Source: Argonema antarcticum A004/B2 | Lineage (GTDB): Bacteria; Cyanobacteriota; Cyanobacteriia; Cyanobacteriales; Aerosakkonemataceae | NCBI RefSeq assembly: GCF_023333585.1 | Contig: NZ_JAIQZN010000033.1 | Location: 1 to 64,000 of the forward strand | Direction: 5' to 3' | DNA length: 64,000 bases | In this document: positions 12,266-43,642 of the stretch, one piece after another | Position numbering within the stretch: position 1 is the stretch's first letter | How the letters are laid out: each line of letters starts with the position of its first letter | Translations under genes and position numbers: made by a program | The notes under the pieces: model-generated | Told to the model about the DNA's origin: nothing | Databases searched by the model: none | The model's input: only the letters and a program-made list of their open reading frames with translations

Positions 12266-13138
12266 TTACAGTCGCATCAAAACAGGCTCACTGATTTTGC
12301 TAACAAATGAACCTGATTCTAATTCAGTAGCATAAACTTCACAAGAATTATTGGGACTTTCTACCAATTTTACCTTGTAAAGCTCGGCTCCCAATTCCCG
12401 AATCGGCTCTTGTAGTAAATCGCGAATCCGAATAGCAATATTTTCAGCCGTCGGAACGACTTCTGCAAAGTAAGGAATATCTTTATTCAAGAAAGTGTGA
12501 TCGAAAGGTTCGACAACATAATCGTCAATAACCTTTTGCAATGAGCCTAAATCAACGCTCATGCCGGTACGTGGGTCAACTTCGCCTTTGACTGTCACCT
12601 CTAAATGATAATTGTGACCGTGACCGTTGGGACGAGCGCACTTGCCATAAATCTCGCAGTTTTTCTCGTAGCTGAGGTCAGGACGAGCCAGTCGGTGAGC
12701 GGCGCTAAAATGAGTAGCAATGCTGAGGTAAGCTTCCATTCCGTTTCCTAAATAATCTGCCCAAAGTTCAGGATGTTCAAACAGTTGAATACGCACCAAA
12801 GGTAAGTGAGGAGCCAGCTTTTGCCAGATTACCCGTGCTATATTTTCGGTAGTAGGAAGAGTCTCTTGAAATTCTGGCCAGACTTCGTTGAGATAGGAAA
12901 AGTCCAGTTGGCTGGTGACTTCTCGCTTGATTACGTGCTTAACATCCGATAGATTGAGTACCATGCCGTACTCATCTAGTTCGCCTGCCATGTAGACAAA
13001 TAGGACGTAATTATGTCCGTGTCCGGGTGCGCGGGTGCAGGCACCAAACCGCTGAATGTTTTCCGCTTCAGTTAGTTCGGGTAACCAGTACCTGTGGCTA
13101 GCCGAAAACTGAGCGCGACGATTGACAATACATTTCAT
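12266..13138 (-). CDS. tandem-domain 6-carboxy/6-pyruvoyl-tetrahydropterin synthase (QueD/PTPS family)
   Basis: Family members convert dihydroneopterin triphosphate to 6-carboxy- or 6-pyruvoyl-tetrahydropterin, for queuosine or pterin synthesis. Two complete domains are fused, about 1-130 and 135-290. Each has the zinc histidines (FSASHRYWLP with APGHGHNY; FSAAHRLARP with NGHGHNY) and a candidate catalytic Cys (GACTRAPGHGH; GKCARPNGHGH). Normal QueD is 120-140 residues, so this is an internal duplication. Both halves look competent. Confidence 0.88.
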   Translation of the reverse strand: MKCIVNRRAQFSASHRYWLPELTEAENIQRFGACTRAPGHGHNYVLFVYMAGELDEYGMVLNLSDVKHVIKREVTSQLDFSYLNEVWPEFQETLPTTENIARVIWQKLAPHLPLVRIQLFEHPELWADYLGNGMEAYLSIATHFSAAHRLARPDLSYEKNCEIYGKCARPNGHGHNYHLEVTVKGEVDPRTGMSVDLGSLQKVIDDYVVEPFDHTFLNKDIPYFAEVVPTAENIAIRIRDLLQEPIRELGAELYKVKLVESPNNSCEVYATELESGSFVSKISEPVLMRL

Positions 13139-15816: not shown

Positions 15817-15946
15817 ACATCACCAACGGGTTTTGACCACACCCGTTGGGTTGAGCAGCGCACGAAACCCAACTTTCGCCAAGCTCATTACTTTCTTAAG
15901 TATACTCCGGTTATTCACTGGAGTTTATCGGTTTACCACCATTGAT

Positions 15947-22307: not shown

Positions 22308-22495
22308 CAAACAACGGCTTTATATACGCTAAAAGCCTTGCTAGTTATGGGTTAAGACGAGTTATATAAATAAAAATTAAAAAAGTTTGCCAGAGGGCTT
22401 GCCAACTCGGTTGCATTACCGTTATTATATTTAAGGGTTGCTCAAGTAGCAGCCAATGCAATCCTCGGTAGCTCAGTGGTAGAGCGATCGGCTGT

Positions 22496-23393
22496 AAGGC
22501 ACAAACACAGGTAAACCTTAAAGTTTACTTGCATTACCTAGCAGCGCTATTCGGCGACGAGTAGTGTAAAATCGGGTGAATTCAAGGAAACCGCAGCACT
22601 TCGGGTGGCGGTAATCTTGAGCCAAGTCTGGAGAAAAAGAGAGATTTCCTCTCATTAGCCAGAAAGGTGCAGAGACTAAGCTGAATGCTTAAAAAGGTTC
22701 TACCAAATGGTAGGAACGATACGGGAAATAAGGTCAGCGCTCGTGGGGATGATATACGGCAAAGCAACTCTTAGGAAAAACCCAGGAGGAGCGGTCGTAT
22801 TAAAAATGACTCACAGCGAACGCGAAAAAGAATATCTGGAATACAAAACCCAGATTATTCAATCTATGTTTGGGTACGAGTTCAAAGTTAGAAGCTTTGA
22901 TAACAACGGCTACCCAGGTGTTGAGTTGGTAACTAGAAACCATGCACGCCTGCGATCGTTGTATCCCGTTATATACAAAAACGGAAAGAAGCAATTCACC
23001 GAAAAAGGGCTGAAAATTCTAACCCCGCTAGGAATATCCTTGTGGTATCTTGATGATGGTTCGCTATCATACAAGCGACGCGAAGGAAAAATCCACGGTC
23101 GCGAACTCACTCTAAACACATATTGCTCTGAGGCAGAAGCTCGATTAGTCAAAATTTACTTTGAGGAACAATGGGATATTCACTGGACTGTTGTTCCGAA
23201 TAAAAGTTGGTGGAGACTAAGAATGGGAGCCACAGAAGGTCGAAAGCTAATAAGTTTAATCGATCCCTTTGTCACAGACTGTATGAGATATAAAATTGAC
23301 CTGAAATTAAAAGATACAGCATCAGCGACAGCGCCCGACATCCCAAGTGGATGATGAGATAGTCCACCCCCTTCAGAAATGTTGGGATAAGTG
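22496..23393 (+). other. group I self-splicing intron (898 nt) in tRNA-Asn
   Basis: Conserved core elements appear in order. P-like ATTCAAGGAAACC (about 22579-22591) and Q-like TAATCTTGAGCC pair as P4, with the P5 hairpin CCGC/GCGG between them. R-like GGTGCAGAGACTAAG is at 22666-22680, and S-like GAGATAGTCC near 23356-23365 pairs GACTA/TAGTC as P7. The 5' exon ends in U and the intron ends in G, as group I splicing requires. GCAGC at 22541-22545 is a candidate internal guide for the exon end GGCTGT. A P8-like hairpin (GGTTCTACC/GGTAGGAAC) lies at 22696-22716. Confidence 0.9.
22707..23354 (+). CDS. LAGLIDADG homing endonuclease encoded in the tRNA-Asn intron
   Basis: A 215-residue single-chain protein with two LAGLIDADG helices: SALVGMIYGKATL (about 10-22) and PLGISLWYLDDGSL (about 105-118), whose acidic residue would bind Mg. 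Linker and C-terminal parts (ELTLNTYCSEAEARLVKIYF; KIDLKLK) match the LAGLIDADG_2 pattern. Such enzymes cut the intron-less allele at the insertion site and drive intron homing; some also aid splicing. The ATG lies in the loop of the P8-like hairpin and the stop falls 1-2 bases before the 3' strand of P7, so coding and ribozyme sequence overlap. The first helix lacks the usual acidic end (GMIYGKA), which may lower activity. Confidence 0.88.
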   Translation: MVGTIREIRSALVGMIYGKATLRKNPGGAVVLKMTHSEREKEYLEYKTQIIQSMFGYEFKVRSFDNNGYPGVELVTRNHARLRSLYPVIYKNGKKQFTEKGLKILTPLGISLWYLDDGSLSYKRREGKIHGRELTLNTYCSEAEARLVKIYFEEQWDIHWTVVPNKSWWRLRMGATEGRKLISLIDPFVTDCMRYKIDLKLKDTASATAPDIPSG

Positions 23394-23456
23394 TAACCGA
23401 TTGGTCGTAGGTTCGAATCCCACCCGGGGAGTTTAGAAAAGGATAAAGTGGGAAGC

Positions 23457-24671
23457 ATGAAAAATGAAATTTCACGCTTCCCACTTCAGCGATCGGGGTT
23501 TGAGAAGTTCTGGGGGCTTGACCCAGATGTAACATTTCTTAACCACGGCTCATTTGGTGCTTGTCCAATTCCGGTTTTGGAAGCACAGCAGCGCCTGCGT
23601 GAACAAATGGAACGGGAACCGTTGCGCTTTTTTGGGCGCGAGTTTGAAGAATTGCTGGATGCCGCTAGAAGTCAGTTGGCTGAGTTCATCGGTGCAGATG
23701 CTTCGGACTTGGTATTTGTCCCCAATGCGACAACGGGTGTGAATGCGGTGTTGAGATCGCTAAAATTTACCAGCGACGATGAGTTACTGACAACAGACCA
23801 CGAATACAATGCCTGCCGCAACGTGCTTGATTTTGTTGCCAACCAAACGGGGGCGCGGGTAGTGGTGGCAAAAGTTCCTTTCCCTCTAGATTCGCCAGAA
23901 AAGGCTCTAGCAGCGGTAATGGAAAAAGTTTCGCTCAAGACGCGGCTGGCACTATTAGATCACATCACCAGTCAGACAGGTTTGATTTTTCCCATCCAGC
24001 AGCTAGTACACCAGCTAGGCGAACTTGGTATCGATACTCTCATTGATGGGGCCCACGCACCTGGAATGTTGCCCCTCAATTTACGGGAGATCGGGCCAAC
24101 TTATTACACTGGTAACTGCCACAAGTGGTTGTGTGCGCCAAAAGGGGCGGCATTTTTGTATGTACGGCGCGATCGCCAATCCCAGATTCGTCCGACGACA
24201 ATCAGCCACGGTGCTAATTCTCCACGCAGCGACAGGTCTCGCTTCCAGCTAGAGTTTGACTGGATGGGAACTGACGATCCTACGGCTTACCTATGCGTAA
24301 GAGCGGCGATTAAGTTTATGGGTTCCCTGCTTGAGGGTGGCTGGTCTGAGTTAATGGCACAAAATCGGGCAATGGCACTGGCGGCTAGGCAGATCCTTTG
24401 CGAAGCCCTTGGCGAAACGCCACCTTGTCCCGATGAGACGATCGGTGCAATGGCAGTTGTACCTTTACCCGATGCAGCCCCCAATTCAGGTAAAACGCCT
24501 TTAATACCGCTTTTACAAGATGCTCTATTTAAGGAATTTGGAATTGAAGTGCCGGTGATTCCGTGGCCTGCCGCACCAAAGCAGCTAATTCGTATTTCGG
24601 CTCAAATTTATAATACACAAGCACAGTATGAGTATTTAGCTTTTGCTCTAGCACAACTACTAGGGACTTGA
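23457..24671 (+). CDS. class V aminotransferase-fold PLP enzyme (isopenicillin-N-epimerase/cysteine desulfurase-like)
   Basis: A 404-residue PLP fold-I protein. The N-terminal VTFLNHGSFGACPIPVLEAQ, the cofactor contact FVPNATTGVNAVLRSL, LIDGAHAPGMLPLNL, and the PLP lysine in YYTGNCHKWLCAPKGAAFLY are class V hallmarks. Fungal and bacterial relatives are annotated as isopenicillin N epimerase-like or hercynylcysteine lyase-like; the real substrate is unknown. GTG 23448 or ATG 23457 can be the start. It begins only 16-25 bases after the tRNA 3' end. Confidence 0.82.
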   Translation: MKNEISRFPLQRSGFEKFWGLDPDVTFLNHGSFGACPIPVLEAQQRLREQMEREPLRFFGREFEELLDAARSQLAEFIGADASDLVFVPNATTGVNAVLRSLKFTSDDELLTTDHEYNACRNVLDFVANQTGARVVVAKVPFPLDSPEKALAAVMEKVSLKTRLALLDHITSQTGLIFPIQQLVHQLGELGIDTLIDGAHAPGMLPLNLREIGPTYYTGNCHKWLCAPKGAAFLYVRRDRQSQIRPTTISHGANSPRSDRSRFQLEFDWMGTDDPTAYLCVRAAIKFMGSLLEGGWSELMAQNRAMALAARQILCEALGETPPCPDETIGAMAVVPLPDAAPNSGKTPLIPLLQDALFKEFGIEVPVIPWPAAPKQLIRISAQIYNTQAQYEYLAFALAQLLGT

Positions 24672-35530: not shown

Positions 35531-36334
35531 CTACACAGTTTTAAACAATTTTAACCAGTCCCTAACCAGATCTCTGGGGCGTTGGGGAGATAGGAACCCA
35601 AAAACCTGCGATCGCAAGCCTCTATCCTCGGATAGCCGTAAATCTTCCCTAAAGATCCACTTTCTTTAGAAAGAATTTAGAATCCTTGCTTATAATCTGT
35701 ACAGGAATCTTTGGATGCCGTAACAGGTTCTATAAGAACCTTAAAAAAACCCGTTAGTCAAAGCTATATAGTCAACAACCCACCACGTGAAAAGGAGTAC
35801 CGATTAAGCGTGGGGGCTTGAAAAACAGCCCTAGTTGACCAGACTTAGGTAGCAATACCTACGTTAGTGGCAAGAGTTCGAGTTCCTACCTACGGATGCG
35901 ACGCCAGTCCGTAGGGGCGGGTTTAATCGGGAAGGTGACAAATGTTGTCTGCCTATCGATAAGTCCAAACCCGCCCCTACGAACCAAGTGGTTAAAAAGG
36001 TTTAAAGGGTTAAGCCAGTGCTGCTGGGATAGTACCGACCACTAACATTGTCAAGGCGAACATCTACCCCTGCCCCAGAAATGGGAGGGGGAGTAATCCC
36101 CAATTAAACGCCCCACCGAGGCGGGTCACAGTATCGGTAGCCTCTATCCTGTGATGCCAGCAGGTATGCCAGAAAGTTCCCACTTCCGTTAGCGAAGCGG
36201 CTCCTAAAAGGAGCGGCGAAACGAGTTTTTCACGTCATTTTAACAATCTTTATGCAAACTAGACCACGGCCTCCCTTTCCTCTCACCGCCAAGCTCAGGA
36301 CAGCTATGGCGGGAGTCTCCAGGGAGGAAGAAAG
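35531..36334. other. 800-nt gene-free, structured region upstream of rpaA
   Basis: No ORF is convincing. From 35760 on it is GC-richer than its flanks and dense in pairing potential. CCACG/CGTGG occurs at 35782-35814, and CGTAGGGGCGGGTTT with its complement at about 35909-35986 (a dispersed cyanobacterial inverted repeat). AGGGGGAG/CTCCCCC-type and GGAGCGG/CCGCTCC stems lie further down. A TATAAT at 35691-35696 could start either an rpaA mRNA with a leader of about 630 nt or a separate non-coding RNA. Confidence 0.45.
35691..35696 (+). promoter_or_regulatory. candidate -10 box
   Basis: TATAAT with an AT-rich upstream segment (TTTCTTTAGAAAGAATTTAG). It is the best promoter-like site between the divergent genes. 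Confidence 0.35.
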
Positions 36335-40887: not shown

Positions 40888-42798
40888 CTCCCTACTCGCT
40901 AGGGAAATTAGTTGAATGGAAACACTTCGGGCCACATATCATTCAGCATTGTCCAGACACTTTGGCCTCCCTACTCGCTAGGGAAATTAGTTGAATGGAA
41001 ACCATATTATTGGTTACGGGCATACCACCCGATTTGTCCCTCCCTACTCGCTAGGGAAATTAGTTGAATGGAAACCAACTAAATCTAAATGAATCGCTCC
41101 ACGGTAGGGGTTACCTCCCTACTCGCTAGGGAAATTAGTTGAATGGAAACAGGGACTCTAAAAGAGACTGATTTATACCATGAACTCCCTACTCGCTAGG
41201 GAAATTAGTTGAATGGAAACGGTGGGGTATATGTTGTGATGTTCGTCATGTTTTACTCTCCCTACTCGCTAGGGAAATTAGTTGAATGGAAACCCTTCTG
41301 CCCAAGCGATGAAGGATTCTAGGTTATTGATCTCCCTACTCGCTAGGGAAATTAGTTGAATGGAAACCGTTTGTCGTGAGACTTTCATTAACACACCTAC
41401 CCTCCCTACTCGCTAGGGAAATTAGTTGAATGGAAACCCGTGCCGCGCGTACTGACCAGCGCGTCGGGCGATTTCGCCTTTATTGCCACCTCCCTACTCG
41501 CTAGGGAAATTAGTTGAATGGAAACGATAAAATTCACCCCAGCGGCTGCCGCACATTGGACTCCCTACTCGCTAGGGAAATTAGTTGAATGGAAACAGAG
41601 TAAAGGTTTTTAATGTAACATCAGCAGGATCGCTTTGTCTCCCTACTCGCTAGGGAAATTAGTTGAATGGAAACTTCATCGACTCGGAGCGCATCAAGCG
41701 GTTTCATCTGCTCCTCCCTACTCGCTAGGGAAATTAGTTGAATGGAAACTTGAGATTTGGCACATCGCCGTTATCATGGGCTTCATGTCTCCCTACTCGC
41801 TAGGGAAATTAGTTGAATGGAAACTTGCCGAATAAGGTATCACTGCCTGATTCTCCATAGATCAAATCTTCTCCCTACTCGCTAGGGAAATTAGTTGAAT
41901 GGAAACTCGGTGGGGCCGCCTTTCATCCACCTGCCGCGACCCTGGCTCACACTCCCTACTCGCTAGGGAAATTAGTTGAATGGAAACAGACCAGCATCGG
42001 GTATGTAAAGTGCGCCGCGCAGGCTCCCTACTCGCTAGGGAAATTAGTTGAATGGAAACTTGATTTTGTCCGCGACTTCTTTCAAGTTCTTGGCTCCCTA
42101 CTCGCTAGGGAAATTAGTTGAATGGAAACTCGCTTAGAGATTGAATGTCATCCATTCTTGATTTGTGATGATCCACTCCCTACTCGCTAGGGAAATTAGT
42201 TGAATGGAAACTCAGAGGTGGGTTTTACTGTATCTACATTTAGGTTTCTCCCTACTCGCTAGGGAAATTAGTTGAATGGAAACCCTCACGTTGAAAGGTC
42301 TTAGTTACAAAGGTGATTATCCTCCCTACTCGCTAGGGAAATTAGTTGAATGGAAACGCTTTTCTCGCTTCTTTTACATCTTCTGTGGATGTATTCTCCC
42401 TACTCGCTAGGGAAATTAGTTGAATGGAAACCGCCAACTTCAGGTGATCGATCGCCAACCATGTAGGGACTCCCTACTCGCTAGGGAAATTAGTTGAATG
42501 GAAACCTTTTGTATTTTTCTTCCTGTATCTCTGCTGAAGACTCCCTACTCGCTAGGGAAATTAGTTGAATGGAAACTATGTGCTTATCGAGAAATAAAAT
42601 CGAGTATTCCAATCCCTCTCCCTACTCGCTAGGGAAATTAGTTGAATGGAAACTAGCTCGGTTGTTATCACAGTATCGTCTCCACCTTCTCCCTACTCGC
42701 TAGGGAAATTAGTTGAATGGAAACTCGGTAGCAAAAATTCCCAGCGGTTGGTCGTCGTCTGTCTCCCTACTCGCTAGGGAAATTAGTTGAATGGAAAC
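40888..42798 (+). CRISPR. CRISPR array, 26 repeats of 36 nt, 25 spacers
   Basis: The repeat starts CTCCCTACTCGCTAGGG, ends GTTGAATGGAAAC and is identical in all copies that I read. TCCCTA/TAGGGA forms the internal hairpin. The base before each repeat varies, which fixes the 36-nt unit. Spacers are 34-46 nt with one of 52 (41438-41489). The 3' end ATGGAAAC looks like the 8-nt 5' handle seen in type I-D and type III systems, and the leader is on the left, so transcription is probably rightward. No cas gene is in the window. A spacer-repeat translation (repeated SPYSLGKLVEWKL) is not a gene. Confidence 0.98.
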
Positions 42799-43642
42799 AA
42801 GGAAACATGGAAACACTCATCTTCGCAATTTTGGCCATAGCTATTTTTTTTATATTATTCCTTCTTTCACCCTGAAGACCTGCACGATTGTTCGCAAAGC
42901 AGATGGCTGGTACTGCTGCATCTCAATGCAAGATGACAATGTACCAGAACCGTTGCCACTCAATGAGATTAAGACAGCTGTTGGCGTTGACGTTGGACTC
43001 AAGGAGTTTCTTGTCACATCAAAGGGCGAGACAGTTCCCATCAAACAGCACTACCGAAAAACCCAATCTCACTTAGCCCGACAGCAACGCTTCTTGGAAC
43101 GCAAGCAAAAAGGGTCTAAGAGGTTTGCCGCACAACAAAACAGGATAGCTAGAATTCATCAAAAGATAGGGCGTCAACGGAAAGATTTTCACTACAACAC
43201 AGCACATAAGCTGGTTAAAAACTATGACTTAATCGCTGTTGAAGACTTAAATATTAGGGGACTTGCGCGGACAAGATTGAGCAAAAGCGTCCTGGATGCA
43301 GCTTGGGGGCAGTTCATCACCATCTTGGAATCAGTGGCAGTTAAATGCGGAGTCCGAGTAGTGAAAGTTAGTCCTCATAGTACAACTCAGGATTGCTCAG
43401 GTTGTGGGACGAAAGTACCAAAAACTTTGTCTATCCGTCTGCATGAGTGTCATAAATGCGGACTCGTTATGGACAGGGACGAAAACGCCGCTTTGAACAT
43501 ACTAGACAGAGCATTAAGCGAGGTGGGACTCATCTTGCCTGCTGGTGGAGGCTTAGTCGCTGGACAGCCTGTGAAGCCAGAAGCTTGGGGTTTTAATGGA
43601 GAAGCTCTCTCTTTTTTTGACCTTGAGAAACTCCCGTTATAG
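42791..43642 (+). pseudogene. 5'-truncated tnpB (IS200/IS605 family RuvC-like nuclease)
   Basis: From about 42866 the frame is TnpB: FTLKTCTIVRKADGWYCCIS, RuvC Asp in AVGVDVGLKEF, Glu in LIAVEDLNIRGLAR, the zinc ribbon CSGCG with CHKCG, and the final Asp in MDRDENAALNILDRA. Intact TnpB is about 400 residues; here the first 120-140 (the guide/target-recognition part) are gone and the frame opens in the last CRISPR repeat. All three RuvC acidic residues survive. TnpB is an omega-RNA-guided nuclease, so this copy is probably inactive. No tnpA is present. Confidence 0.85.

Follow-up and report, generated by a model that had tools for sequence, protein, structure and literature searches.

The group I introns that interrupt the tRNA-Leu(UAA) and tRNA-fMet genes of cyanobacteria belong to subgroup IC3. 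According to the available parts of two earlier studies, these introns lie in the anticodon loop and have a patchy distribution (PMC5733544, PMC8450103). tRNA-Leu, tRNA-fMet and tRNA-Ile2 are the host genes named in the available text of four papers on such introns (PMC3984707, PMC1995217, PMC5733544, PMC8450103). One of these mentions four tRNA genes with introns, of which tRNA-fMet is the one named in the text available (PMC1995217), and another describes, in its available part, inserts of 22–49 nt in Arg, Gly and Lys tRNAs (PMC5733544), which in our judgement are too short to be group I introns. A protein of the LAGLIDADG family that is encoded in a 23S intron of Thermotoga neapolitana assists group I splicing, as stated in the part of PMC3984707 available to us.

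Here we describe a group I intron in a tRNA-Asn(GUU) gene, which was found in a cyanobacterial DNA stretch of 64 kb (the window, meaning the whole of the DNA analysed). Like the tRNA-Leu(UAA) and tRNA-fMet introns, it is located in the anticodon loop and is patchily distributed, but it occupies another tRNA and another position, between anticodon positions 35 and 36 (35|36), and has an additional helix of the P7.1 type between P7 and P3'. An earlier sequence-only reading of the window had suggested that this would be a new or at least a rare insertion site, and in agreement with this suggestion no tRNA-Asn group I intron is named in the open-licence PMC literature searched, as far as the available text of those papers goes and with subscription papers lying outside its scope. 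The locus would add to the sites at which bacterial group I introns are inserted, here in a tRNA on which translation depends.

A tRNA-Asn gene split within its anticodon

With introns allowed, ARAGORN calls one tRNA in the 64-kb window, a tRNA-Asn(GUU) at 22462–23431 on the forward (+) strand, the strand of all features below. It is split between positions 35 and 36 by 898 nt (22496–23393), exactly the segment whose removal had been proposed to yield an intact tRNA-Asn. Since the same procedure gave a single false positive for an intron-containing tRNA when run on 20 windows of first-order Markov sequence, this call alone is insufficient as proof. The 5' exon (22462–22495, ending CGGCTGT at position 35) and the 3' exon (23394–23431, starting TAACC at position 36) join to give a 72-nt tRNA that ARAGORN folds as tRNA-Asn(GUU) and that matches the uninterrupted genes of two other genomes (G015 and G023) base for base (72/72 nt). 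A U ends the 5' exon and a G ends the intron, both as first read from the sequence, and the same two bases occur in 32 relatives found by a pattern search. Shifting the cut by a single base gives a broken anticodon loop when read by eye. The anticodon-stem pair that spans the intron covaries among 21 introns that lack an open reading frame (ORF), being G-C in 18 and A-U in 3. The interruption of the tRNA-Asn(GUU) anticodon is thereby confirmed.

The genome that contains the window (G000; 7.74 Mb in 249 contigs) has a further, uninterrupted tRNA-Asn(GUU) gene, the only one found in a search with the spliced tRNA. It has an encoded CCA, is 81% identical to the tRNA of the split gene over positions 8–64, and lies at 15871–15945 in an array of 28 ARAGORN tRNA genes that spans about 3.4 kb of contig C230 (L031:13449–16817). 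The claim that this is the single ordinary tRNA-Asn gene in the genome rests mainly on the spliced-tRNA search: a tRNA family search, in which 150 of 466 candidates were scored, listed at least 70 tRNAs, and tRNA-Tyr and tRNA-Ile were not named among the loci read, so the tRNA list is incomplete. In the sequence-only reading, the finding of an intact tRNA-Asn(GUU) at another locus, combined with the lack of an Infernal match, was taken to speak against the intron; the uninterrupted gene does exist, but Infernal does match the intron (see below), which is therefore not refuted.

In principle, the array copy with its encoded CCA could serve the cell and the split gene could be dead. We regard this as highly improbable, given that the exons of the split gene are identical in the two congeners of the window's species (G032 and G091; 34/34 bases of the 5' exon and 38/38 of the 3' exon), that the anticodon stem has undergone the compensatory change across the intron noted above, and that the tRNA halves are well kept in the 32 carriers found by pattern. 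In addition, PMC10272220 reports, in its available part, that Anabaena represses a comparable tRNA operon under standard culture conditions.

An inverted repeat of 19 pairs is present just 3' of the tRNA (23444–23488). It overlaps the GTG at which the aminotransferase ORF starts in the ORF list; the true start of this ORF may be further downstream. Searches returned 2 promoter-like sites, where 2.0 were expected, and no tandem repeats.

The group I core

Based on its sequence and predicted helices, the interrupting element is a group I intron, as the sequence-only reading had it, with a conserved P3–P8 core in which the G-binding helix P7 can be located. The Rfam model Intron_gpI (RF00028) matches the window at 22578–22681 with a score of 40.9 bits (E 9.5e-9) and thus falls short of the gathering score of 50. 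The reason is that the core is interrupted by the ORF, which lies within the roughly 650 bases between the 5' strand of P7 and P3'. The ORF-less introns at the same site in relatives give matches to the whole 253-position model with scores of 63–95 bits, such that the Infernal search recommended earlier is above the cut-off in all 12 of the relatives tested and below it in the window itself. A model built from tRNA-Asn introns (R1) matches the window core as two pieces, at 22571–22764 and 23321–23369. A separate Rfam match, to 'RMST_8' inside the ORF, was dismissed as chance (E 0.58).

In the proposed structure, an internal guide with the sequence ACAG (22507–22510) would pair with CUGU of the exon to form P1. 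This is followed by the P2 hairpin (22545–22566), the 5' strand of P3 (UCGGGUG, 22572–22578), P4–P5 with the P- and Q-like elements (22582–22620, as indicated by the Rfam match and the alignment described below), P6–P6a (22621–22668, from the alignment) and the 5' strand of P7 (GACUA, 22674–22678), which corresponds to the R-like element. Where the ORF-less relatives have a single P7.1 hairpin, the window has two small predicted hairpins (22678–22717; individually 22678–22690 and 22697–22717), and the fold of 22676–22735 (−12.7 kcal/mol) places the ATG of the ORF (22707) in the loop of the second. Beyond the ORF, the helix model has the 3' strand of P3 (CGCCCGA, 23332–23338), the P8 hairpin (23339–23353), the 3' strand of P7 (UAGUC, 23360–23364), which is the S-like element and pairs with GACUA, and the P9 hairpin (23367–23387).

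These helices were assessed on an alignment (A4) of 21 of the 32 introns yielded by the pattern search, all of them ORF-less and with near-duplicates omitted. Two additional introns, L137 and L138, failed the pattern; the former was confirmed otherwise and the latter is a reading by eye. Across A4, 96.2% of cells are paired in the proposed helices, P7 included, compared with just 30–43% when the structure is slid by 1–3 columns. Two-sided changes affect 12 pairs and 46 cells versus 5.4 and 11.3 in shuffles, whereas further pair types, at 26 versus 29.0, are below the shuffles. P3, P7 and P8 are invariant on A4 and hence uninformative for covariation. P2 is paired in 89.4% of cells, and P1, which is poorly aligned, is the weakest helix with 76.8%. 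The guide is GCAG in both congeners, where the splice-site pair of the proposed P1 would be U-G, compared with U-A in the window. As read by eye, it would also be U-A in four short introns from the same family as the window and U-G in some others.

R1 gives 161–222 bits for ORF-less tRNA-Asn introns versus 54.2 bits for a tRNA-fMet intron (L169), 48.7 bits for an intron read by eye as tRNA-Leu (L168) and 59–67 bits for five ORF-less tRNA-Arg(CCU) introns. The next-best class comprises introns in genes resembling that of class II ribonucleotide reductase (L156–L161, L203), with 82–110 bits in six genomes and 97 bits in another (G531). When examined by eye, these share with the tRNA-Asn introns a P7.1 hairpin that has a similar CAATAA loop and the P3' sequence AGCGCCC, but they differ in that their host gene, named by eye from the flanking protein, is protein-coding. 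No homologous ORF was detected in the three longer stretches of such introns that were searched (L186–L188).

Distribution of the intron

An even draw of 388 genomes was taken from the order and carriers were called by R1, ARAGORN and reading by eye. With R1 matches down to about 45 bits and strict filters, an intron at the exact 35|36 site is found in at least 39 of the 388 genomes, which represent six families (at least 10 carriers in f1, 20 in f2, 3 in f5, 1 in f9, 2 in f12 and 3 in f21). In the window's family all ten genomes carry it. The two other members of the genus have the same 898-nt intron with an ORF, at 94–95% protein identity, and the seven remaining genomes have ORF-less introns of 273–278 nt at the same site (in G152 and G165 the available sequence begins 8 bases 5' of the intron). 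The ORF is present only in the window's genus (3 of 3) among the at least 39 carriers, in which the other introns measure 267–339 nt, and at 94% identity or more it is confined to the genus in a set of 291 genomes (3/291). The ORF version is also found in a metagenome-assembled genome of an uncultured cyanobacterium (CASBRD010000283.1), the one relative named in a scan of genome contigs that may omit records near the window's genome. The proposal of a recent homing event, as made in the sequence-only reading, does not agree with a site that is occupied throughout the family and in five others, nor with an ORF version that is shared by the whole genus.

tRNA-Asn genes that are split in this manner escape tRNA finders. 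ARAGORN without the intron option reports zero tRNA in the 64-kb window, and with introns allowed it misnamed nine of 36 relatives (L120–L155) as tRNA-Thr or tRNA-SeC and missed two, in which the available sequence begins inside the tRNA. When 291 genomes of the class, many of which belong to the same order, were searched with R1 at E ≤ 1e-13, two matches came from other orders, these being the ribonucleotide reductase-gene intron of G531 and a match in G561 for which ARAGORN gave no tRNA placement.

Intronless genes were found as well. At E ≤ 1e-15, the spliced tRNA has an uninterrupted match in 117 of 148 genomes drawn. These 117 include none of the 19 carriers in the draw, 13 of which are listed as matchless and six of which belong to the unlisted remainder, and 12 genomes have neither the intron nor an uninterrupted match at that threshold. 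YacP and/or a class V aminotransferase adjoins the split gene in 31 of the 32 carrier loci compared (of 38 carriers other than the window), the exception being L138. A YacP neighbour within about 1.5 kb is present at two of 12 intronless loci (L194 and L201), which are true empty sites, and one genome (G092) is intronless in a genus in which most sampled members bear the intron.

This pattern agrees with an old insertion that has been lost in places, and the shared neighbours favour vertical descent, although just two of the 12 intronless loci have the same neighbour. In a tree of the intron core, the window's family does not group together: its ORF-less introns occupy three separate positions and the window is nearest to an intron from f2 (L127). 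Transfer between families may therefore have occurred, although with 158 columns and weak support the tree cannot choose between horizontal and vertical spread. ORF-bearing tRNA-Arg introns and L053 were not part of this tree, and the tRNA-Arg placement of L165, for which there is no ARAGORN call, is to be disregarded.

The intron-encoded protein

The ORF (22707–23354) encodes a protein of 215 amino acids that resembles I-SceI. Towards its 3' end the ORF extends over P3' and P8, and its stop codon (23352–23354) is at the end of P8, hence the last codons double as ribozyme. The protein matches LAGLIDADG_2 (PF03161; E 7.6e-25), and a search of NCBIfam with it returned nothing. An AlphaFold2 model (pLDDT 90.5) was obtained from an alignment (A3) of 30 of the 43 proteins used for the ORF tree described below. 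The solved folds closest to the predicted structure are those of I-SceI (1r7m; Z 22.5, rmsd 2.3, 189 residues aligned) and I-WcaI (6x1j; Z 22.1), with which it appears to have the two-motif single-chain fold in common, consistent with the two-motif LAGLIDADG protein recognized in the sequence-only reading. The same two are also the best matches in a profile search (E 6.7e-13 to 3.2e-12), but the identity is 17–18%. The maturases bI3 (2ab5) and I-AniI (1p8k) share the predicted fold and are more distant from it than I-SceI (Z 12.3 and 12.1, respectively).

The catalytic residues of I-SceI are Asp44 and Asp145; a search of open-licence PMC for literature support for these two positions found none. 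In the alignment with I-SceI, the window's protein has Lys19 (first catalytic position) opposite the Asp of the GD motif and Asp117 (second catalytic position) opposite the second Asp of DDG. Both LAGLIDADG motifs are recognisable, with the catalytic acid kept in the second only, the first reading GKA. The codon for residue 19 is AAA in the window and in G091 and GAG in G032, giving K, K and E, and Lys at this position is limited to the first two species. Asp117 is kept in all three, G032 being acidic at both positions (E, D). It is doubtful from these residues that the window's protein cleaves both DNA strands, and the earlier designation as an endonuclease is weakened to the same extent.

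Among the three congeners, the dN/dS values of the ORF, computed with the last 10 codons excluded, are 0.149, 0.168 and 0.162 (p 1.3e-6 to 1.4e-5 versus equal rates), with 10–11 nonsynonymous and 16–19 synonymous changes at a dS of 0.13–0.16, and there are no stops or indels in the ORF across the three species. The ORF is under purifying selection, some of which, being measured between tips, may be older than the E/K change. This record makes it quite unlikely that the ORF is a decaying endonuclease gene that has no present function and sits in an intron that splices unaided, as might be supposed from the loss of the acid in two of three species and from the 36 of at least 39 introns at the site that are ORF-less, which imply that the protein is not generally needed. 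Relatives do include LAGLIDADG ORFs that are split over two frames (L182, L183 and L189), which are probably decayed copies and which would likewise be in keeping with decay.

Low dN/dS would also be expected of a protein that is still a homing enzyme and that cuts or nicks intronless tRNA-Asn genes and so spreads the intron, with Lys19 either leaving a single active site, and thereby a nickase, or being a recent loss within a mobile family. Given the Asp117 of all three congeners and the E19/D117 pair of G032, the genus may still have an enzyme that cuts or nicks DNA, and intronless orthologous sites exist at L194 and L201, next to YacP, and in G092, within a carrier genus. Weighed against the replacement of a catalytic acid by a residue of opposite charge in two of the three species, the restriction of the ORF to a single genus at the identity given above, and the presence of the intron in all three genomes of that genus, which leaves few known targets there, we consider continued homing unlikely. 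In tblastn searches of plasmids and phages, the matches to the protein were of only 25–30% (1 and 9 records), some of them to phage endonucleases.

Proteins of tRNA-Arg(CCU) introns

Introns in tRNA-Arg(CCU) genes of the same order encode proteins of the same family, from ORFs that, as judged by eye, are also positioned between the P7 5' strand and P3'. They differ from the tRNA-Asn intron in their site (36|37), in occurring with or without the ORF, and in the separate clade to which their ORFs belong. In all, 46 of the 60 genomes with ORF matches were examined, the 14 genomes with weak matches being omitted, and the tree was built without the three two-frame ORFs and without L185, which duplicates L075. 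The tree contains 43 proteins, of which 37 are encoded in tRNA-Arg(CCU) introns, three in tRNA-Asn introns and two inside nrdB-like genes (L071 and L077, flanks read by eye), and one is unplaced (L184). The tRNA-Asn ORFs form a clade of their own (100/100) outside the tRNA-Arg clade (97/95) and are weakly placed beside the nrdB-intron ORFs (91/33). The pattern seen in the tRNA-Arg proteins therefore bears on the tRNA-Asn protein by analogy and not by descent. The separate clades, together with the uninterrupted tRNA-Arg(CCU) gene of the window's genome (L017), led us to reject a recent jump of the ORF from a tRNA-Arg intron.

The tRNA-Arg proteins have lost the catalytic acid at one position or more in 36 of 37 cases and at both in 25. 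An acid is present at position 19 in 10 proteins, at position 117 in three and at both in one (L060). Of the 197 columns, none varies more than position 19, at which 13 different residues occur, whereas positions 14, 16, 17 and 18 are invariant. Position 117 has nine, Arg or Lys in 25 of the proteins, between the invariant Asp116 and Gly118. All 14 pairs of tRNA-Arg proteins tested have a low dN/dS (0.022–0.317, p 5.4e-4 or less), including pairs that are acid-free (L070/L082, 0.177; L174/L177, 0.172; L172/L178, 0.166). Where selection maintains a protein whose catalytic acid is free to drift, the protein most likely serves another function. The 37 proteins of this clade (L060–L086 without L071 and L077, and L170–L181) are candidate splicing proteins.

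Proposed role and significance

To our knowledge, the known host genes of LAGLIDADG maturases are not tRNA genes. Assisting splicing is nonetheless the job known for the LAGLIDADG fold within introns, as exemplified by bI3, I-AniI and the Thermotoga protein (PMC3984707, in its available part), and by analogy with these it may be the job here. We think it probable that the tRNA-Asn(GUU) gene contains an old resident group I intron, that its LAGLIDADG protein now serves mainly as a maturase, and that homing by the window's allele has been weakened or lost. The proposed maturase role follows from the purifying selection on the ORF despite loss of the first acid in two of three species. Judged on its residues, the protein looks more like a former DNA-cutting enzyme that has become a splicing helper than the enzyme of an active mobile element.

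We propose that an external G would attack after U35 in the first transesterification, and that the freed exon would then attack after the last G of the intron, which would restore a normal tRNA. The resident intron would be mostly ORF-less at this site and would in the window's genus additionally hold the I-SceI-like LAGLIDADG gene in the stretch from P7 to P3', the product of which would now help its own intron to fold and splice. A U-A instead of a U-G pair, as proposed for P1 of the window, would be a possible reason for such folding help. More tentatively, and with a likelihood that we would put somewhat short of even, cyanobacterial tRNA introns may have converted I-SceI-like homing enzymes to dedicated splicing proteins at least twice independently, with the tRNA-Asn protein at an early stage of this process.

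If the proposed role is correct, these proteins would be the first maturases that we know of from bacterial tRNA introns, and tRNA-Asn(GUU) would be a new resident site of group I introns. The two sites offer a natural series, which extends from ORF-less introns to proteins with E/D and K/D at the tRNA-Asn site and from D/D to no acid at the tRNA-Arg site, and which permits a direct test of the transition from homing endonuclease to maturase.

Other features of the genome

Another group I intron of the same genome is located at L053:355–588 (contig C209; 73.9 bits) and, as read by eye, interrupts tRNA-Leu(UAA). Four more tRNA-like calls are present at 2798–6732 of L031, the sequence from contig C230. 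Contig C40 has a run of three unusual tRNA-like genes (12791–13037; L022/L032), among them one called as tRNA-Pyl(CUA) and one without a clear anticodon. Within the window, a HEARO RNA (HNH endonuclease-associated RNA) is matched at 35771–36066 with 92.9 bits, over the Rfam cut-off, and an ORF at 42791–43642 has, by eye, the look of a TnpB-type transposon protein.
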